Source of the DNA: Mariniflexile litorale
Lineage (GTDB): Bacteria > Bacteroidota > Bacteroidia > Flavobacteriales > Flavobacteriaceae
DNA: 64,000 nucleotides
Assembly: GCF_031128465.2 (NCBI RefSeq)
Contig: NZ_CP155618.1
Span: 877,501 to 941,500 of the forward strand
Reading direction: 5' to 3'
A model generated the notes under the pieces. That model searched no databases. It saw only the letters and a list, made by a program, of their open reading frames with translations, and was not told where the DNA came from. The number at the start of each line of letters is the position of its first letter. Position 1 is the first letter of the stretch. A program made the translations under genes and the position numbers. Of this stretch, positions 18,885 to 27,997 are shown in pieces.

Positions 18885-20162
18885 TTATTTCTTTATGAAT
18901 TTTATCGATTCTCTACCTGTATTATTATGAAAATTTATTAGATAAATACCAGAAGTTAAGTCTTCAACTGGAAAGGCATATTTTTTTGTTGCTTTAGCCG
19001 AAACTTTATCTCTAGCTAGCTGTCTTATAAATTTAGCATTTAAATCGTATAGTTCAATTAGTAAATTGTCTACGGACTCAAATTCAATATTAAATTCCAA
19101 AACGGATTCAACGGGGTTATTATTTAATTTAATTTTTAAAGGAGTTCTATCTTTTTCTTCTAGGTTTTTTATACCTAAAACTTCTTCTGTAAACTTATAA
19201 AGAGAAGTGCCACTTGCATAAGCCAAAGTAGAATTTATAATAAAAATTCTATTCAAATTGCTTCCAATGTTTAAATTCGTCCATGATTGTCCACCATCTA
19301 AAGTTTCATAAAAACCCGTAGCATGGCCACCCATCCAGCCTTTGTTTTCATTAACAAAACCAACCGCTTGAATGTTTGTCTCGGGAGCGTTATGCGTAGT
19401 CCAAGTAGCACCACCATCTATTGATTTTACCAACTTTCCTAAGTTTGGAGACACCGCTGCTTGAATGGAGCCAAAAATAACATTAGGGTTGCTTTCTAAT
19501 ACTTGCATTTTCCAAAAATATTCTCCTTCCGTGCCCGAATTGTATAATTCGGTCCAAGAATCACCCCCATTACTGGTTTTTAATAAGGTTGCGCCATTAG
19601 CATTTCTTCCTGCAACAAAGCCTACTTGTTCAGTTAAAAAATAAATTTCTACAAGTGCATTTGCATTAGCAGACATGTCTATAAATTGCCAAGTAGCACC
19701 ACTGTTGGTAGATTTAATAATATGGGCTGGTGTAAAATATGCACCGCAACCATAAATTGTTGATGTGCCTACACTAGCTAAACCACAAATAGCAGCTGGG
19801 TTTGGCGATATATTTGTAACCTCTGTCCAGTGAGTACCGCCATCAATGGTTTTAAAAAATTTTCCTTCAAGAGTACCTAAAAAACCAATATTTTCATTTA
19901 AAAAATCGATGGTTCTAAAGTAATAATCACCGTTAAGCATAGATTCATTTAGCTGCATGGTCCAATTTTTACCACCATCTACGGTTTTGTAAACAGCGGC
20001 ATAAGCACCGTTGACGGCCCACCCTGTTGTTTCGTTAATAAAATGAATATCATCAAAACGTTGGAGGTTTATGTTCGATGTAATATTTGTAAGCGGTTGC
20101 CATGTTGCCTGAGCAGAAATGTTTAGGTAAAAAAGGGAACATATAATGATTAATACTCTCAT
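18885..20162 (-). CDS. Secreted YCF48/BNR-like repeat protein with type IX sorting domain
   Basis: This 425-residue secreted protein is a predicted type IX cargo. It has a Sec signal peptide (RVLIIICSLFYLNISAQA, cleavage near 19). Six or seven beta-propeller repeats follow, each with a WxxxxxGG..W core (VYKTVDGGKNWTM, FFKTIDGGTHWTEV, IIKSTNSGATWQF, LLKTSNGGDSWTEL, LVKSIDGGATWTT, FYETLDGGQSWTN). These resemble the YCF48/photosystem II stability factor propeller. A type A C-terminal sorting domain covers about 340-425 (NNPVESVLEFNIE, LYDLNAKFI, LTSGIYLINF, SIKFIKK). The substrate is not known. Confidence 0.88.
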   Translation of the reverse strand: MRVLIIICSLFYLNISAQATWQPLTNITSNINLQRFDDIHFINETTGWAVNGAYAAVYKTVDGGKNWTMQLNESMLNGDYYFRTIDFLNENIGFLGTLEGKFFKTIDGGTHWTEVTNISPNPAAICGLASVGTSTIYGCGAYFTPAHIIKSTNSGATWQFIDMSANANALVEIYFLTEQVGFVAGRNANGATLLKTSNGGDSWTELYNSGTEGEYFWKMQVLESNPNVIFGSIQAAVSPNLGKLVKSIDGGATWTTHNAPETNIQAVGFVNENKGWMGGHATGFYETLDGGQSWTNLNIGSNLNRIFIINSTLAYASGTSLYKFTEEVLGIKNLEEKDRTPLKIKLNNNPVESVLEFNIEFESVDNLLIELYDLNAKFIRQLARDKVSAKATKKYAFPVEDLTSGIYLINFHNNTGRESIKFIKK

Positions 20163-20251
20163 ACTTAATTTTTAAGGTTTAAAGATAAGTTTTATAATCT
20201 AACTTTTTTATAAAAGCAGGTTTTGAGTATTAAAGTTCATACTTTAAAGCA

Positions 20252-20284
20252 GTATCTCATAAACTGTGTAAGTTTATGAGATAC
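20252..20284 (-). terminator. Long inverted repeat downstream of the repeat lipoprotein
   Basis: A perfect 14-bp inverted repeat (GTATCTCATAAACT / AGTTTATGAGATAC) with a 5-base loop lies 61 bases after the lipoprotein stop on the minus strand. The T-run after it is weak, so it may be a terminator or an mRNA-stabilising hairpin. Confidence 0.6.
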
Positions 20285-20344
20285 CTGTCTTTTACATAAT
20301 ACTTAACTTAATAAACCAATAAGGAAAGAGATCTCTTTTTTCTA

Positions 20345-21823
20345 TCAATCATTATTAAATTCTAGAATTAATATTCTTTTTATTGCTCCTGTAGTACTAT
20401 AATCTTTCAATTCTATTCTAGTTGCTGTAGCTTCTTTAATTTCCCATCTCCCGTTTAGTAAGAAAAATGGAGAAAACAGATCACTAACTATGAATTGTAT
20501 ATCAAGAAATAATTTTTCTTCACTTCTATAAGCTAACCAAGAACCTGGTACAAAATAATCTGGACCAGCTTCTGGAGAGATTGCGTCCATATATCCATTT
20601 TCAATAAATTTTATTGGATATTCCTCAAAATGAACCGTTTGGTCATCATCTTCATAAATATAAGACGTTACTTTCCAACCTCCATCCCAGACTCCCCCCC
20701 AAGCTGAAGTTAGGTAATCATTAATTTCGTTTATATCCTCATCTCCATCTGGACAATGTGATTTTAAAATCATTTGGTTATTTGCGTTTTTTAATTTTAT
20801 TAGATTTGGCTCTAAAAACGTTATTATCCATTCTAGCTTTAAATTAGGTCTATTATCTAAGCTTATTTCTAAAAGAAAACCAATATTTTTTTCACTTATC
20901 TGATAAGTTCCTTCAACTAACTCGCCATTTACTCTAAGTTTCACAATATTATTAGCATAAAATTTTAAAGGTCTTCCTATATAATCTTTTTCATTATCTA
21001 AATTATCAACTGATAAGCGTGAAATTCTCCAATAGCATTGTTGCAAATAGTCTTCAATTTTTTCTTTAGTAAAATCATCATCACCATAATTATTATCGTC
21101 ATCTTCATCACAAGCATCTTTGGCTTCATTTATGGTTTGTTCTAATTCAATATTATTATTTACAACAATTTCAGATCCGTCAGCCAACTTCATTGTTAAA
21201 GGAAAATTCAAACTAGCAAATACCTCGCCTTGCTTTACTCGATTTATAAAAAGATATAATTGTTTGTCGTTTTCTATAGTTACTACATCTATTATTTGAA
21301 ATTCTGTATTATATACTGAAAACGAAATGGGGAATGCAAAATCGATACATTCAATATCGTCATCTAATGCATTTTCTTCTTTACAGTCTATTGCAAATTC
21401 GATAAATTCTTCTTTATTATTGATTACTATTTCTGTGTAATCTGATAAGATAATTTTAGCTGGAAAAATAATTTCAAGCTTATCATCATCGTTATCAAAC
21501 TCTTTAAAAATAGTCTCAATTGTTTTATAATCTTCTTCAGAATCTACAATAATCTCAAGATTATTAACTATAACTGTTACTGGCAACTCAACCGTTAGGC
21601 AACTTGCATTGTCTATAATATTATCTTTAGATCCATCTTTTTTAGAAGTAGCACTTATTAAAGCTGTAAGCTGTGAATTTGCAGAAAGCGTTTCACTTTC
21701 ATCAGGTGGCGTAACTTCAATAACTTCTTCTTGACACGAGGTAAATAATAAAAGGGCAAAAAAAGGAATTAGTAATAGTGTTCTCATTTTAATTTTCATT
21801 TTTTTAATTTTTGGGTTTAACAT
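20345..21823 (-). CDS. Surface lipoprotein with four short repeats and two C-terminal beta-type modules
   Basis: I do not recognise a named family. The 492-residue protein has a lipoprotein signal with lipobox LFTSC (Cys30 from the first ATG). In-frame ATGs at 21799 and 21787 are possible alternative starts. Four repeats of about 35-40 residues follow at 75-110, 116-150, 159-200 and 204-240, each with the pattern FP-x-(I/V)-x(6-9)-E(I/F)-x(3-4)-N/D-x-EE. They are separated by very acidic DDDD linkers, which could bind Ca2+. The C-terminal half has two modules opening with a W-containing strand (CYWRISRLSVD near 263 and GGWKVTSYIYED near 386), resembling lipocalin-like beta barrels. It is divergent from the ECF sigma gene and has the same promoter-like motif as fecR, so it is probably a co-regulated partner of the TonB receptor. 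Confidence 0.8.
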   Translation of the reverse strand: MLNPKIKKMKIKMRTLLLIPFFALLLFTSCQEEVIEVTPPDESETLSANSQLTALISATSKKDGSKDNIIDNASCLTVELPVTVIVNNLEIIVDSEEDYKTIETIFKEFDNDDDKLEIIFPAKIILSDYTEIVINNKEEFIEFAIDCKEENALDDDIECIDFAFPISFSVYNTEFQIIDVVTIENDKQLYLFINRVKQGEVFASLNFPLTMKLADGSEIVVNNNIELEQTINEAKDACDEDDDNNYGDDDFTKEKIEDYLQQCYWRISRLSVDNLDNEKDYIGRPLKFYANNIVKLRVNGELVEGTYQISEKNIGFLLEISLDNRPNLKLEWIITFLEPNLIKLKNANNQMILKSHCPDGDEDINEINDYLTSAWGGVWDGGWKVTSYIYEDDDQTVHFEEYPIKFIENGYMDAISPEAGPDYFVPGSWLAYRSEEKLFLDIQFIVSDLFSPFFLLNGRWEIKEATATRIELKDYSTTGAIKRILILEFNND

Positions 21824-21833
21824 AGCATTTTGG

Positions 21834-21870
21834 TTATAAAACAGGATACCTTTAAAAATTCCTACCCCTA
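21834..21870 (-). promoter_or_regulatory. Two-part ECF-type promoter motif, copy A (lipoprotein)
   Basis: On the minus strand TAGGGGTAGG (21870-21861) is followed after 16 bases by CTGTT and then TTATAA (to 21834). The same two parts with the same 16-base spacing stand before fecR at 22491-22526. The motif does not match the TTG/TAnnTTTG housekeeping consensus. It ends 10 bases before the first lipoprotein ATG. Confidence 0.6.
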
Positions 21871-21913
21871 TTGATGTTTTTTTTTAATTTAGCACAATAA
21901 AGCCCCATAATAC

Positions 21914-22429
21914 ATGAATAAAAATCTTCATGAAAATATTTGCGAAGAACATTTGTTTTCTTCCATATTTAATAAATACTCCAAAGATTTACACAATTTT
22001 TTATACTATAAGTATGGTGATTTACTGAATCCAAAAGATAAAGTACAAGAAGCTTTTATTAAACTTTGGGAGAATTGTGCTAAAGTGAGCCCCGATAAAG
22101 CAAAAAGCTTCGTTTTTACAACAGCCAATAATTTAATGTTGAATGAAACAGCTCACCAAAAGGTTGTGTTAAAACATCAACAAATTAAACCAAAAACCTA
22201 TACTAACGAAAATCCTGAATTTTTAATGCAGGAAACCGAGTATATGGATAAGCTACAGAAAGCAATCGCTAATTTAACCGATGCACAACGTGAAGCTTTT
22301 ATGATGAACCGAGTAGAAGGCAAACGCTTTAAAGAAATTGCAGAGATTTTAAATATTTCTACCAAAGCAGTTGAAAAACGCATTTATGGGGCTTTGGAAA
22401 AATTGAGAAAAGATATTAAGGAATTGTAG
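21914..22429 (+). CDS. ECF RNA polymerase sigma factor (FecI-like)
   Basis: This 171-residue group IV sigma factor has region 2 at about 18-85 (FNKYSKDLHNFLYYKYGDLL, KVQEAFIKLWENC) and region 4 at about 115-165 (LTDAQREAFMMNRVEGKRFK, LNISTKAVEKRIYGALEKLR). It is followed by fecR and a receptor with an STN domain, the arrangement of cell-surface signalling systems in which ligand binding at the receptor releases the sigma from FecR. The stop codon sits in a short palindrome (GGTTAG / CTAACC, 22429-22444) that could attenuate transcription into fecR. No housekeeping -7 box was seen in the 90 bases shared with the divergent lipoprotein gene. Confidence 0.93.
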   Translation: MNKNLHENICEEHLFSSIFNKYSKDLHNFLYYKYGDLLNPKDKVQEAFIKLWENCAKVSPDKAKSFVFTTANNLMLNETAHQKVVLKHQQIKPKTYTNENPEFLMQETEYMDKLQKAIANLTDAQREAFMMNRVEGKRFKEIAEILNISTKAVEKRIYGALEKLRKDIKEL

Positions 22430-22490
22430 GTTAGAAACCTAACCTTTATTTCTTTCGAGACTTTGGCTCTTTGAAACTTTTTTTCAAAAG

Positions 22491-22526
22491 TAGGGTAGGA
22501 AAAAATTAAAGTTAACTGTTATATAA
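22491..22526 (+). promoter_or_regulatory. Two-part ECF-type promoter motif, copy B (fecR-receptor)
   Basis: TAGGGTAGG (22491-22499), then 16 bases, CTGTT (22516-22520) and ATATAA (22521-22526). It matches copy A at 21834-21870 in both parts and in spacing. It lies 12 bases before the fecR ATG. Confidence 0.6.
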
Positions 22527-22538
22527 TTGAATATCGAA

Positions 22539-23438
22539 ATGATGAACAAAGAAGAGTTAATATCAAAATGGTTAAATAATGATCTAAATGATCAAGAACT
22601 TGAAGTGTTTAAAAACCTTGAAGACTATGATGATTTAGTAAAGTTAAATAATGGTTTGCAAGCTTTTAAGGCTGAAAATTATGATACTTCTAAAGAATTA
22701 GAAACTGTTTTAAAAACTATTAAAAGCAAAAAACAACATCAAAGTCATTGGTTTAAACCATTTATGCGTATTGCTGCCATACTTGCAATTTGTTTTAGCT
22801 TATATTATTATACCACAACATTAGATACTACAATACATACCGAATTTGCACAAAAAACAACTATTGAATTGCCAGATGCATCAAATGTGTCTTTAAACGC
22901 AAAATCGAGTTTAGTATTCAACAAAAATTCATGGAAAAAAGAACGCGATGTTAAACTTGAAGGCGAAGCTTTTTTTAAAGTTGCTAAAGGTTCAACCTTT
23001 AATGTTATCACAAAGTCTGGAACCGTAACGGTTTACGGAACTCAATTTAACGTAAAACAACGCGAAAATTATTTTGAAGTTATTTGCTACGAAGGATTAG
23101 TTGGAGTTACTTACCTTTCTCAAGAAACAAAGTTAAAACCTGGTGACAGTTTTTTAATTATTGATGGGAAAACAATTGCTAAAGAAAAAGATTACCATTC
23201 AACACCTTCGTGGTTAAATAACGAAAGCTTCTTTAAAAGCTTACCGTACAAAGAAGTCATTGCTGAGTTTGAAAGACAATACGATGTAGATATTACACTT
23301 TTAAATATTGATCCCTCCCAATTATTCACAGGTAGTTTTGCACACAATAATATTGATGTTGCTTTAAAGGCAATCACTTTACCCTTACATGTAACATATA
23401 GTAAAACAAAAAAAACTATCATACTAAAGCGTGAGTAA
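22539..23438 (+). CDS. FecR-family anti-sigma factor/transmembrane regulator
   Basis: This single-pass inner-membrane protein relays a periplasmic signal to its cognate sigma. The ATG at 22539 (299 residues) is preferred over the TTG at 22527, which follows at once on the promoter-like motif. The N-terminal cytosolic part (NKEELISKWLNNDLNDQELE) is the anti-sigma segment. A membrane helix is at about 74-91 (MRIAAILAICFSLYYYTTT). The periplasmic FecR domain (about 105-200) contains ELPDASNVSLNAKSSLVF, DVKLEGEAFFKVAKGSTFNV and TVYGTQFNVKQR. The C-terminal DUF4974-like part has LPYKEVIAEFERQYDVDI. The last codons overlap the receptor start by 8 bases, implying translational coupling. Confidence 0.93.
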   Translation: MMNKEELISKWLNNDLNDQELEVFKNLEDYDDLVKLNNGLQAFKAENYDTSKELETVLKTIKSKKQHQSHWFKPFMRIAAILAICFSLYYYTTTLDTTIHTEFAQKTTIELPDASNVSLNAKSSLVFNKNSWKKERDVKLEGEAFFKVAKGSTFNVITKSGTVTVYGTQFNVKQRENYFEVICYEGLVGVTYLSQETKLKPGDSFLIIDGKTIAKEKDYHSTPSWLNNESFFKSLPYKEVIAEFERQYDVDITLLNIDPSQLFTGSFAHNNIDVALKAITLPLHVTYSKTKKTIILKRE

Positions 23439-25752
23439 AAGAGGAATTTTTTCTGTTTTTTTATCATTGTTTTTTTTGAATGTTGCCATATTAAAAGCAC
23501 AAACCATTCAAAAAGAAAAACAACCACTTCTCACTATTTTAAAACTACTCGAAGTACGTTACGGCATTAGTTTTTCCTATGCTGATCAAACCATTAAAGA
23601 CAAAACTTCATCACTACCACATAGCGAAGGATCTTTAGATGACGCTTTGAAAGTTCTTAAAACTGAAACACAATTAGACTTTGAATTGTTAGACAGTCGT
23701 TTTGTTGTTATAAAAAAAACACCCAGAGTAGAAATGATCACTTTCAATACGCAACTTCTTGAAAAAGTAGTTATTAGCAATTACCTAACCTCGGGGATTA
23801 CTAAGCTAAATGATGGTTCCCTTACTATAACACCAAAAACCTTTGGTATTCTTCCAGGATTAATTGAACCCGATGTGCTGCAAACTATTCAAGCACTTCC
23901 TGGTGTTTTAAGTTCCGACGAAACCGTATCTAATATTAATGTTCGTGGTGGTACACACGATCAAAACCTACTGCTTTGGGATGGTATTAAAATGTATCAA
24001 TCGGGACATTTTTTTGGTTTAATATCAGCTTTCAATCCATACACTACGAAGCGGGTTAATGTTTATAAAAATGGCACAAGTGCTAAATATGGTGATGGTA
24101 TTTCTAGTATTATCGATATACAATTACCTAATGACATTGATAACGAATTTAAAGCAGGATTGGGTTTCAATTTGATAAATACTGATGGTTTTGTTAAAAT
24201 TCCATTAACCAATAAAACAGAGCTACAATTATCCACCCGACGCTCAGTAACCGACTTAATTTCAACGCCAACTTATAACCAATATTTCAAACGTGTTTTT
24301 CAAGATTCCGATTTAACAAACTCTAAAAACAATCGTAATTCTATTTCACAAAATGAACAATTTTACTTTTATGATATTAATATCAAATTATTATATGACA
24401 TCACTAACAAAGATAGAATCAGAATTCATTCTTTAAATGTAAATAACAAATTAAACTACGACGAACAAGCTACCATTAATGACAAAAATGAAAGTTTAAA
24501 TAGTAAATTGTCTCAACAAAACCTTGCTACGGGAATCACATATATAAGAGATTGGAGTAGTGAGCTTTCAACGACATCACAAGTTTCTATTTCAAATTAC
24601 GATTTAGATGCCACTAACTACGATATCACAAACAATCAACGTTTAATTCAAGAGAATGAAGTATACGACACCTCTGCTAAAATAGATATTAATTACACAC
24701 CAAAATATCAATTTAAAATGAATGCTGGTTATCAGTTTTCCGAAGTTGGCATAAGTAATTTAGAAGATGTTAATAATCCCGTTTTTAGAAGTTATATAAA
24801 AGAAGTGATTCGTAACCATGCCGTTTACGCAGAAACCAACTTATTATCAAACAATGCAAAAACGAATTTAAAAATAGGAGGCCGACTGAATCATATATCA
24901 AAGTTTAATCTATTTTTAGCAGAACCTCGATTAAGTTTTAGTCAGCGATTTTTAAATTATTTCAGGCTTGAAATTTTGGGTGAATTTAAAAGTCAAACAA
25001 CTTCACAAATTATCGATTTACAAAACGATTTTTTAGGTATTGAAAAACGTCGTTGGGTTTTATCTAATAATAAAAACATTCCTATATTAAAAAGTAAACA
25101 GGCCTCTATAGGTATTCATTACAACAAAAATAAATTACTTGTAAGTGCTGAAACGTATATAAAAAAAGTTGATGGTATTACTGCAAGAAGCCAAGGGTTT
25201 TTAAACCAATATCAATTTGTAAAAGCCATAGGTAGTTATGAAATAACGGGCATCGATGTACTTATAAATAAACAATTTAAAGATGTAGTTAGTACTTGGG
25301 TTTCCTATTCGTTCAATACGAATGACTATACGTTTAACACATTAAATAATGGCAAACCATTTCCTAACGAATCTGATATTAAACATGCTATTACTTTTGG
25401 AAGCACTTACACCTATAACAACTTTAAGTTTGCTTTAGGTTTAAATTGGCATTCTGGAAAACCTACAACGCTACCCGATAGAAATGATAACCCCTACGAT
25501 AATGAAATAACCTACTCCAATCCTAACGGCACTAATTTAAAAGATTATTTGCGTGCCGATTGTTCTACCACTTATAAATTTAATATTTGCCATACTACAC
25601 GAGCCACTGTCGGAGTTTCTGTTTGGAATATTTCAAACAAAAAAAACATCATTAATTCCTATTACACTTTAGATGATGAAAACCAAATTACTAAAGTGGA
25701 AAATCATTCCTTAGGCATTACTCCTAATGTTAGTTTTAGATTGCATTTTTAA
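23431..25752 (+). CDS. TonB-dependent outer-membrane receptor with STN signalling domain
   Basis: This 773-residue outer-membrane receptor starts at GTG 23431 inside the end of fecR. A signal peptide (to about residue 23, LKAQ) is followed by a secretin/TonB N-terminal STN domain at about 25-93 (LLTILKLLEVRYGISFSYAD), the module that contacts FecR. A plug domain covers about 140-225 (ETVSNINVRGGTHDQNLLLW, YGDGISSIIDIQLP), and a 22-strand barrel runs to the C-terminal TPNVSFRLHF. There is no carboxypeptidase-like domain and no SusD gene beside it, so it is not a classical polysaccharide utilisation pair. The ligand is unknown; the divergent lipoprotein may be the surface partner. Confidence 0.92.
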   Translation: MSKRGIFSVFLSLFFLNVAILKAQTIQKEKQPLLTILKLLEVRYGISFSYADQTIKDKTSSLPHSEGSLDDALKVLKTETQLDFELLDSRFVVIKKTPRVEMITFNTQLLEKVVISNYLTSGITKLNDGSLTITPKTFGILPGLIEPDVLQTIQALPGVLSSDETVSNINVRGGTHDQNLLLWDGIKMYQSGHFFGLISAFNPYTTKRVNVYKNGTSAKYGDGISSIIDIQLPNDIDNEFKAGLGFNLINTDGFVKIPLTNKTELQLSTRRSVTDLISTPTYNQYFKRVFQDSDLTNSKNNRNSISQNEQFYFYDINIKLLYDITNKDRIRIHSLNVNNKLNYDEQATINDKNESLNSKLSQQNLATGITYIRDWSSELSTTSQVSISNYDLDATNYDITNNQRLIQENEVYDTSAKIDINYTPKYQFKMNAGYQFSEVGISNLEDVNNPVFRSYIKEVIRNHAVYAETNLLSNNAKTNLKIGGRLNHISKFNLFLAEPRLSFSQRFLNYFRLEILGEFKSQTTSQIIDLQNDFLGIEKRRWVLSNNKNIPILKSKQASIGIHYNKNKLLVSAETYIKKVDGITARSQGFLNQYQFVKAIGSYEITGIDVLINKQFKDVVSTWVSYSFNTNDYTFNTLNNGKPFPNESDIKHAITFGSTYTYNNFKFALGLNWHSGKPTTLPDRNDNPYDNEITYSNPNGTNLKDYLRADCSTTYKFNICHTTRATVGVSVWNISNKKNIINSYYTLDDENQITKVENHSLGITPNVSFRLHF

Positions 25753-25831
25753 AAAAACGTTGACTTTTCTAAAATAAAAAACTGCTTGAATTTAATTTTA
25801 ATAAACGAAACAAACCATTTCTTATATTTGG

Positions 25832-27997
25832 ATGAAAAATATAAGGGTTATGTTACTATTAAACATTTTAGACACCTCACTTCCATTTACCAATCCGGTA
25901 CTAAAGTTTCTTATTATTTTAATAATTATTTTACTAGCCCCAATCATTCTTAACAAATTAAAAATCCCTCATATACTAGGGCTTATTGTTGCTGGTGCGG
26001 TTATTGGTCCTAATGGGTTTAATCTATTGTTACGTGATAGCAGCATCATTCTATCGGGCACTGCGGGCTTACTTTATATTATGTTTTTAGCAGGTTTAGA
26101 AATAGATATGAATGAATTCAAAAAAAATAAATTTAAAAGTTTGTTGTTTGGATTGTTTACGTTTTCAATACCCATGACTTTTGGTGTTTTAGTAGGCATC
26201 TTCATCCTGAAATTTTCTGTACTTACATCGGTTTTACTTGCCAGTATGTTTGCTTCTCACACCCTTATAGCCTACCCTATTTTAGGGAAATTTGGCATTA
26301 CAAAAAACCGAGCCGTAAACATTGTGGTAGGCGGCACCATGATAACCGATACCTTGGCTCTGTTAGTATTAGCCATTATTGTTGGCATGACTAAAGGTTC
26401 AGTAGGTAGTGAATTTTGGATTCGACTTTTTATATCTGTAATGATATTTGGCTTTATTGTCCTTAACATTTTCCCCATTATTGGCAGATGGTTTTTAAAA
26501 CGTTACCAAGATAATATTTCGCAATACATTTTTGTTTTAGTTATTCTTTTTCTAGGTTCTTTTTTAGCTGAAGTCGCAGGCGTAGAAGCCATTATTGGTG
26601 CCCTACTTTCGGGTTTTGCTCTTAACAGACTAATTCCTTCCACGTCTCCATTAATGAACCGTATTGAGTTTGTTGGAAACGCTATTTTTATTCCTTTCTT
26701 CCTTATTGGCGTGGGCATGCTAATCGATTATCGTGCTTTTTTTACAGACTTTGAAACTATCTTGGTTGCCCTTGTTATGACGGTTGCTGTAACATTAGCA
26801 AAATTTATAGCAGCATGGGCCACACAAAAATCGTTTAAATTTTCGGCAGATGAGCGACGTGTTATATTTGGACTAAGCATTGCGCATGCTGCTGTTACAC
26901 TAGCAACCGTTTCGGTAGGTTATAATATTATTATTGGTGAAACTGAAACAGGCGAACCAATAAGGCTGTTAGGTGAAAGTATTTTAAATGGTACTATCAT
27001 CATGATTTTAGTAACCTGCACCATTTCAACTTTTGTGGTTCAAAAAGGTGCTAGAAATCTATCGCTATTTCAATCTACTGCTAAAGACAAGAACAATGTA
27101 GTTAACGAAGAAAAAATATTAATTGCTATTAATAATGCCGATACGGTTGAAGAATTAATTAGCTTAAGTACCATCATAAAATCTAAAGAAAACAAAGATT
27201 CCCTATTTGCATTGCATGTTATAAACAATGACAACAACGATGTTCATGCTGAAACAAGTGCCATTAAAATACTAGACAAAGCCATAAAAATTGCAGCTTC
27301 AACCGATATTAAACTCAGTAAATTACTCCGTTATGATTTGAATATTATGAATGGCATTTTAAACGTTGCCAAAGAAAAAAAGGCTACCGATTTAGTTCTA
27401 GGCTTACACATTAAAACAAATATTTCGGAATCGTTTTTAGGAAGTTTAACCGAAGGTGTTTTATCAAAATGCAACGCTACCAGCTTTATATACAAAGCAT
27501 CTCAACCTATTGCGACTATAAAAAGACACATTGTTATTATGCCTAACAACGTAGAAAACGAAGTTGGATTTCCGTTTTGGCTTGATAATATTTGGAACAT
27601 CTCATATAATACGGGCGCTAAAATAATTTTTTATGGTACCGAACATTCCATAAAAGTTATTCAAAATATTCATTCAGAACATCCTATTGATGCCGATTTT
27701 ATAATTTTCAATAGTTGGAGTAGTTCCAAAGCACTATCTAGCAATATTAAGTTAGACGATAATTTAATTTTTATTTTAACCAGAAAAGACGAGCCTTCTT
27801 ACCACAAAAACATAAAAAATATTTCTATTTATTTAAATCGGTATTTTAAATCGAATAATTTTATTTTGGTTTGCCCGATTATGCAAACCCATATTCCTAA
27901 TGGAACCACCGATTTCAATAACCCTTCTTTATTAGAACCATTAGAAAAACTAGATGAAATTGGAAAAACTATAGCGAATGTGTTTCGTAAAAAGTAA
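25832..27997 (+). CDS. CPA2-family cation:proton antiporter with C-terminal cytosolic domain
   Basis: This inner-membrane Na+(K+)/H+ antiporter has about 12 membrane helices in residues 20-410. Family features are IPHILGLIVAGAVIGPNGF (about 47-65), SGTAGLLYIMFLAGLEIDMN (about 77-97) and the unwound-helix region GVEAIIGALLSGFALN. The remaining 300 residues are cytosolic and look like a duplicated UspA-like fold rather than a RCK domain. The ATG at 25832 gives 721 residues. However, a TATATTTG -7 box at 25823-25830 would start transcription near 25837, which makes the second in-frame ATG at 25850 (MLLLNILD) a plausible true start. Confidence 0.9.
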   Translation: MKNIRVMLLLNILDTSLPFTNPVLKFLIILIIILLAPIILNKLKIPHILGLIVAGAVIGPNGFNLLLRDSSIILSGTAGLLYIMFLAGLEIDMNEFKKNKFKSLLFGLFTFSIPMTFGVLVGIFILKFSVLTSVLLASMFASHTLIAYPILGKFGITKNRAVNIVVGGTMITDTLALLVLAIIVGMTKGSVGSEFWIRLFISVMIFGFIVLNIFPIIGRWFLKRYQDNISQYIFVLVILFLGSFLAEVAGVEAIIGALLSGFALNRLIPSTSPLMNRIEFVGNAIFIPFFLIGVGMLIDYRAFFTDFETILVALVMTVAVTLAKFIAAWATQKSFKFSADERRVIFGLSIAHAAVTLATVSVGYNIIIGETETGEPIRLLGESILNGTIIMILVTCTISTFVVQKGARNLSLFQSTAKDKNNVVNEEKILIAINNADTVEELISLSTIIKSKENKDSLFALHVINNDNNDVHAETSAIKILDKAIKIAASTDIKLSKLLRYDLNIMNGILNVAKEKKATDLVLGLHIKTNISESFLGSLTEGVLSKCNATSFIYKASQPIATIKRHIVIMPNNVENEVGFPFWLDNIWNISYNTGAKIIFYGTEHSIKVIQNIHSEHPIDADFIIFNSWSSSKALSSNIKLDDNLIFILTRKDEPSYHKNIKNISIYLNRYFKSNNFILVCPIMQTHIPNGTTDFNNPSLLEPLEKLDEIGKTIANVFRKK

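Follow-up and report, generated by a model that had tools for sequence, protein, structure and literature searches.

A divergent orphan lipoprotein constantly linked to a FecI/FecR/FecA-kind signalling module in Flavobacteriaceae, with matching predicted promoters on its two arms

We analysed a stretch of 64,000 nucleotides from Mariniflexile litorale (assembly GCF_031128465.2, contig NZ_CP155618.1, positions 877,501 to 941,500; hereafter the window), in which a lipoprotein gene on the minus strand lies back to back with plus-strand genes for an extracytoplasmic function (ECF) sigma factor, a FecR-type regulator and a TonB-dependent receptor. The explanation that we favour, and consider reasonably probable, is a FecI/FecR/FecA-type signalling module, with a divergent lipoprotein as its constant companion, in which the sigma factor drives both arms and the lipoprotein acts as a surface co-receptor. 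Comparison of orthologous loci at the level of sequence brought out the fixed gene order, a promoter on each arm, the agreement of the promoter classes with each other and with the sigma factor, and the near absence of the motif before the sigma gene itself; the direction of signalling, the surface location and the co-receptor role are what we infer. The parts are of known kinds, and we file the constant orphan lipoprotein and its promoter classes as a variant of FecIRA/Has-type signalling. No paper on the module was recognised among the matches listed in a search of the open-access literature, which covered titles and abstract openings. The features of the module, in window coordinates, are these:

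20345..21823, minus strand: lipoprotein gene, 492 codons from 21823 or 488 from 21811 (open reading frame list, alignments and models)
21834..21870, minus strand: predicted promoter of the lipoprotein arm, TAGGGGTAGG-N16-CTGTTTTATAA (motif match; core kept across loci)
21885..21892, plus strand: TAATTTAG, a TAnnTT(T/A)G-like housekeeping −7 box, its first base 29 nucleotides (nt) 5′ of the sigma start
21914..22429, plus strand: ECF sigma factor, 171 amino acids (Pfam Sigma70_r2 and Sigma70_r4_2 above cut-off)
22428..22445, plus strand: terminator-like hairpin at the end of the sigma gene, 5′ of the fecR promoter (suggestive only)
22491..22526, plus strand: predicted fecR-receptor promoter, TAGGGTAGG-N16-CTGTTATATAA (motif match; core kept across loci)
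22539..23438, plus strand: FecR-type sigma regulator (anti-sigma), 299 amino acids from ATG 22539 (Pfam FecR and FecR_C above cut-off)
23431..25752, plus strand: TonB-dependent receptor, overlapping the end of fecR by 8 nt (Pfam Plug and FecR_C above cut-off)

An earlier note, made from the letters of this DNA alone, had named the same genes, and these identities stood with two amendments. The start of FecR in the open reading frame list, TTG 22527, lies immediately 3′ of the −10 box, and ATG 22539 is probably the true start. The N-terminal signalling domain of the receptor, which had been called STN, is FecR_C/STN-like (residues 30-89) and was matched by FecR_C (PF16344), not by any model named STN; it is followed by the plug at residues 149-223, and the barrel itself had no Pfam match. 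The sigma factor carries both region 2 and region 4, the latter at residues 112-164, and FecR matched PF04773 at 69.1 bits against a cut-off of 24.

The motif GGGTAGG-N16-CTGTTWTATAA occurs without mismatch before both arms, at 21834-21867 on the minus strand and at 22493-22526 on the plus strand, with the same 16-base spacing; the minus-strand copy reaches further, to the whole of the first box listed above (21834-21870). In shuffled sequence 0.09 matches would be expected at three mismatches or fewer, and no shuffle yielded two. Across the 4.52 Mb genome the window pair are the sole exact sites, one per arm; the other seven sites of the full motif all have three mismatches, and a backward control gave 12. 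The looser core TAGG-N16-YTGTTnTATAA has three exact sites in the genome, namely the two arms and G000:C1:2737406 outside the window, as well as eight with one mismatch, against eight in all for the control. A chance likeness of the two promoters was ruled out by the shuffles, the genome-wide count and the orthologues. A housekeeping promoter for both arms was also rejected, because the boxes are unlike TAnnTTTG and track the sigma factor. The earlier note had described one motif with identical spacing before both arms and had set it apart from the housekeeping consensus, and both observations were borne out.

All loci checked for order had the genes and strands arranged as in the window: 59 of 59 retrieved by way of the lipoprotein, and 23 of 23 by way of FecR, one locus being common to the two sets (L112 repeats L057). 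The 59 were chosen by hand among the matches listed, from rows without loci, and some rows were left out, for example near contig ends; all 59 hold the sigma factor, FecR and receptor. Gap sizes differ between loci, the sigma-FecR gap reaching 3.3 kb in L129. The lipoprotein search matched 173 of 249 genomes of the family, and the records related to the FecR protein are from Flavobacteriaceae or Flavobacteriales; the first 29 related loci (L011-L039) had flanks of 1500 bases, with FecR truncated in a few. Across the phylum, 395 genomes were drawn, of which 49 matched the lipoprotein profile, 36 of them in the same family, and the matches outside the family were mostly to the C-terminal lipocalin-like part only. 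The 30 loci returned from this draw, some of which repeat earlier loci and which end before the receptor position, all had sigma and FecR beside the lipoprotein. None of the genes flanking the module in the window was common to the 21 loci compared. The synteny search that the earlier note had proposed thus found the lipoprotein/sigma/fecR order kept throughout, in agreement with its view of the lipoprotein as a regulated and linked member of a system without SusD; indeed, no SusD-family match was found by Pfam in the seven window proteins scanned nor in 46 lipoproteins. The window protein falls outside Pfam and NCBIfam models; in all 82 order-checked loci this lipoprotein is part of one signalling module.

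Promoters were compared in 113 pooled loci, from which three with duplicate sigma proteins (L041, L046 and L112) were removed, leaving 110; three further fecR arms lay beyond the available stretch (n = 107). The core tested was AGG-N16-YTGT(T/C), with ties broken, for the controls as for the data, toward T or C before AGG and toward TA in the −10 box. It was complete in 102/110 lipoprotein arms and 101/107 fecR arms. By comparison, the opposite strand gave 1/110 and 0/107, and shuffles 0.5 and 0.1; the 14 misses retain seven of the eight core letters (L094 is doubtful). Absence of the motif before orthologues, which the earlier note had put forward as an observation that would speak against it, was therefore not what we found. 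In 96 of the 101 loci counted, the −10 box ends 10-16 nt before FecR begins, which would leave the fecR transcript a leader of only a few nucleotides. Since the sense strand of sigma is the opposite strand of the lipoprotein arm (1/110), the sigma gene almost never bears the motif.

The −35 boxes fall into three classes, A (TAGG, as in the window), B (CAGG) and C (TAGGGT). In 101 of 107 loci the class of one arm was also that of the other. Of the six loci that disagree, five show class B variants that differ by one letter, and in the sixth the lipoprotein arm has TAGGGT and the fecR arm TAGG. For the letters around AGG, the similarity of the two arms within a locus was 0.862, compared with 0.577 for permuted partners (none of 5000 as high), and it also exceeded permutation inside sigma clusters (0.827; 0/5000). 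When the lipoprotein arm of one locus was compared with the fecR arm of another, similarity increased as the sigma proteins became more alike (r 0.72 with their identity; at most 0.20 on permutation). The arms are different DNA, so common descent of one arm alone would not make both alike; a shared reader that tracks the sigma factor would be the simple cause. Related loci share history, and the locus counts are therefore not independent events. On the protein side, the classes are told apart, at 75% or more, by 22 positions of sigma; 14 of them lie at residues 133-168, in or near the Pfam region 4 match, and the rest at 19-124. Residues 133-168 we take to be region 4.2, from the Pfam match (112-164) and from general knowledge of ECF sigma factors. 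Changes in class B include Thr149, Val152, Tyr155 and Phe161 (94-100%), and those in class C include Glu146, Met157 and His158 (82-89%); at residue 155 class A has Lys. Taken together, the motif before nearly all orthologous arms and the three classes, matched between arms and tracking the sigma factor, provide strong evidence, by comparison, for both promoters being read by the adjacent sigma, as the earlier note had suggested. Each sigma class would come with a ready promoter signature, making regulons predictable from sequence, and the natural series of matched sigma/promoter pairs, whose −35 boxes are TAGGA, CAGGA and TAGGGT and whose sigma residues differ accordingly, offers candidates for orthogonal switches.

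The sigma gene appears to be transcribed differently. The flavobacterial housekeeping −7 box is TAnnTTTG (PMC9723704), and a TAnnTT(T/A)G box was present within 70 nt 5′ of sigma in 69/110 loci, as against 6.4 in shuffles. It lies at −28 to −30 in 40 of the 69, and the strict TAnnTTTG form occurs in 28/110. These figures are consistent with a housekeeping-like promoter for the sigma gene. We propose that basal levels of sigma, FecR and receptor would sense a ligand; a signal at the receptor would then cause its signalling domain to act on FecR, and sigma would be released or activated. Contact between the receptor signalling domain and FecR is known for Fox and Fec (PMC11637429, PMC9249621). 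Active sigma would raise fecR-receptor and the lipoprotein together through its own promoter class, and the hairpin at 22428-22445 could set the sigma transcript apart. A promoter in this position, after the sigma gene and ahead of the anti-sigma gene, would make the response self-limiting, as has been described for HasI and hasS (PMC9249621). Outside the cell the lipoprotein would serve as co-receptor, its conserved N-terminal module docking and its variable barrels binding ligand, much as BtuG, XusB or TbpB work with TonB-dependent partners of their own.

The predicted lipoprotein comprises a signal peptide, a cysteine, a Q-E-E export-like signal, four beta-beta-alpha repeats and two lipocalin-like barrels, and the window protein matched no Pfam or NCBIfam family. 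In all 98 lipoproteins examined the lipid cysteine is followed by at least two acidic residues at +2 to +7 (12 of the 110 loci were left out for short or misread frames). For surface export the published minimum is one positive or polar residue with two acidic residues after it (PMC5080379), and the lipoprotein is likely to be exposed at the cell surface. A structure model built from 46 sequences (mean predicted local distance difference test score (pLDDT) 85.8, predicted template modelling score (pTM) 0.59) placed the beta-beta-alpha repeats at about residues 72-233, followed by the barrels. The top Foldseek matches were two lipocalin-like proteins (E 3e-7 and 7e-7), and single-barrel lipocalin-like proteins fitted better, with template modelling (TM) scores of the target up to 0.59. 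Modelled alone from 62 sequences, the N-terminal module gave pLDDT 82.4 and pTM 0.76. Among the 46 members few matched lipocalin-like Pfam models, and those weakly, and one (L096) has a Laminin_G_3 domain. Within the genus the lipoprotein is the fastest-changing member of the module, at 43-47% identity (over best BLAST pieces), compared with 92-95% for sigma, 79-82% for FecR and 77-78% for the receptor. In L050, L054 and L060, which have readable frames of the Aquimarina type, we noted a 220-residue lipoprotein that consists of the N-terminal module alone.

The module resembles several described systems in part. Like E. coli FecIRA, it combines an ECF sigma, FecR and a TonB receptor with an N-terminal signalling domain, and the sigma gene has a housekeeping promoter with the receptor under sigma, here as judged by sequence (PMC9249621). 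It differs in that FecR and receptor form one sigma-dependent operon, whereas E. coli fecIR has its own promoter (PMC9249621), and in having the lipoprotein as a constant fourth gene; fecBCDE-type transport genes were not seen at the locus. As in Serratia HasISR, the sigma factor would not be autoregulated, would drive the anti-sigma gene and the receptor, and would have an extracellular partner protein (PMC9249621). The sequences fit such wiring, with the motif on the sigma-sense strand in 1/110 loci and before fecR in 101/107. Here, however, the partner is a divergently transcribed lipoprotein that matches no Pfam family and was not recognised as a HasA-type hemophore. The Bacteroides pairs BtuB-BtuG and XusA-XusB also join a TonB-dependent transporter to a non-SusD surface lipoprotein (PMC10404256, PMC13142918); our lipoprotein lacks Pfam homology to named families and is tied to its own sigma and FecR, neither of which is mentioned for those pairs in the available parts of these articles. 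In TbpA-TbpB, too, a TonB-dependent receptor has a surface lipoprotein next to it, one with an eight-stranded barrel (PMC7857515). Differences from it are the weak fold match, the different phylum and the lack of any mention of sigma or FecR in the part of PMC7857515 available; given the low fold scores, homology to TbpB is not claimed.

The earlier note had further described the system as self-contained, which the sequences do not support as it stands, since the third core site of the M. litorale genome lies far from the module, at the gene of a 28-residue membrane protein with one predicted pass (hereafter the microprotein) and several relatives have distant sites of their own. In 35 class A genomes the class A pattern, at one mismatch or fewer, gave 100 matches against 11 in the backward control; a hand count put 65 of them at the module and 35 at other places, and 12 of these 35 had no mismatch. 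We fetched 20 of the 35, comprising all 12 exact sites and eight of the 23 with one mismatch; the eight were picked by eye, not at random, and some one-mismatch sites may be there by chance. Of the 20, 19 were anchored (L165 was excluded, its coordinates being shifted at a contig end). The microprotein gene lay behind six of them, once as a diverged copy. The other sites precede genes for DUF4382 lipoproteins (two), lamin-tail-like proteins (two), PKD-like proteins (two, in one genus), a 392-residue secreted protein and its relative (two), a 289-residue lipoprotein family (two) and singles (three); Pfam was used for L163 only, and the other names were given by eye.

The M. litorale microprotein gene occupies G000:C1:2737243-2737326 on the minus strand (locus L170); a class A sigma site lies about 112 nt 5′ of it, and a second ECF-like element, CGCAACC...GCATCT, lies closer to it. 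The sigma factor would probably drive this gene as well. The protein was found in 35 of 37 genomes searched, and the upstream core in 17 of 27 parsed loci (30 were taken; one of the sites is weak), as against none on the opposite strand and 0.085 in shuffles. Four of six genomes in the genus have the module (G000 and G250-252); G134 and G249 are without a close FecR, the best match being 33% in the former and none being found in the latter. The microprotein site is exact in G000, has one mismatch in G250 and was not seen in G251, G252, G134 or G249. A CGCAACC...CATCT element nearer the gene, which in our reading resembles another ECF promoter, is kept in all six. Universal control of the microprotein was rejected; because the core is present in 17/27 readable loci and varies inside the genus, the sequences make the microprotein a frequent, not an obligate, member of the regulon. 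Five microprotein loci gave six weak Rfam matches, all below gathering scores.

These distant genes bear on a different reading, in which the module would be a sensor of cell-surface state: the receptor would monitor the lipoprotein or its correct export and import no nutrient, and sigma would adjust surface proteins. All 19 readable distant sites precede secreted proteins, lipoproteins or the microprotein, with no importer recognised, most microprotein genes have the second ECF-like element, and the lipoprotein changes fastest. However, the receptor plug is normal and the gene order FecA-like, sigma factors of such a kind usually report a substrate, fast change fits a ligand binder or phage target too, and the distant sites were partly picked by eye; we regard this reading as unlikely. 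The same holds for its family-wide form, a system that monitors the export, assembly or occupancy of a dedicated surface lipoprotein and controls a few surface proteins and the microprotein, with three insulated classes; if true, insulation would come about through matched changes in sigma region 4.2 and both module promoters. Less probable still is that the lipoprotein acts as a negative element or decoy, capturing ligand, phage or bacteriocin before the receptor. Its separate transcript, its greater variability than the receptor and a C-terminal part that differs by locus (lipocalin-like, Laminin_G_3 in L096, or none in L050, L054 and L060) would suit such a role, but the constant linkage (59/59) and shared promoter better fit a working partner. 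Finally, the motif might be the binding site of another activator or repressor instead of a promoter of the sigma factor. The classical ECF promoter pattern is AAC ... CGT, to which the box letters are not close. Yet the fixed 16-base spacing, the 10-16 nt between −10 box and FecR start in 96/101 loci, the TGT in the −10 box and the agreement of the motif with the sigma classes all argue against this, and no further gene was recognised as a regulator among those common to the 21 compared loci. We consider it very improbable.

The co-receptor explanation itself has several observations to contend with. The receptor matched no solved structure by sequence, from which its ligand might have been deduced, and no transport or metabolic gene was seen conserved beside the module; the Na/H-exchanger-like gene 3′ of the receptor (same strand, from 25832) was without counterpart in the 23 long related loci. 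For the lipoprotein, the best lipocalin-like pair reached a Foldseek TM score of only 0.17-0.28, and TbpB entries were far down the fold search (TM 0.10-0.13). The N-terminal module is without Pfam or PDB relatives and had no structural match better than E 0.07, and its docking role is thus a guess. On the regulatory side, the box upstream of sigma was not detected by pattern in 41/110 loci, the class agreement of 101/107 reflects a few class switches among related genomes, and among the four genus members with the module the microprotein site is absent in two and has one mismatch in a third.

A regulatory RNA at the locus was rejected, no Rfam match reaching its gathering score in 19500-26500, and a check for mobile origin gave no plasmid match at megablast level. 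Terminator-like hairpins in the region are at chance level (two found, 2.3 in shuffles); a 14-bp one was noted at 20252-20284, between the lipoprotein gene and the next minus-strand gene. A gene that we take to be ffh-like is near the module in 14 of the 21 compared loci.

Among class B loci with long flanks, six of seven (the exception is L062) have the lipoprotein followed by tRNA_anti-like, DUF5777, haem-binding-like and YceI genes; these families were named on L051 (973-4110) and assigned in the other loci by similarity, and the haem-binding-like gene (CxxCH) scored below the Pfam cut-off. The distant one-mismatch class A site of L163 precedes DUF4382, tRNA_anti-like, plastocyanin-like and, by eye, DUF5777-like genes, so that two sigma classes point at overlapping genes. 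In five loci of the Aquimarina type (L050, L052, L054, L056 and L060) a fasciclin-type gene, identified by Pfam on L050, adjoins the lipoprotein.

The M. litorale genome has 13 FecR genes in all, and a second, paralogous lipoprotein/sigma/FecR/receptor module lies about 25 kb before the window (L078:4104-9469; G000:C1 847.1-852.5 kb). Identities between twin and window are 50% for sigma, 43% for FecR, 45% for the receptor and 30% for the lipoprotein. Both arms of the twin carry a motif that differs from that of the window, GTAGGGTAA-N11-GTTGTCTWA, with six further sites in the genome at three mismatches (control 14). Of its four exact copies in the genome, one stands before the twin fecR and two stand upstream of the twin lipoprotein; the fourth, at 3154305, precedes a gene (L149:4388-4843; G000:C1 ~3154387-3154842) for an apparently secreted, His/Tyr-rich protein of 151 residues, which is without a Pfam family and possibly binds metal.

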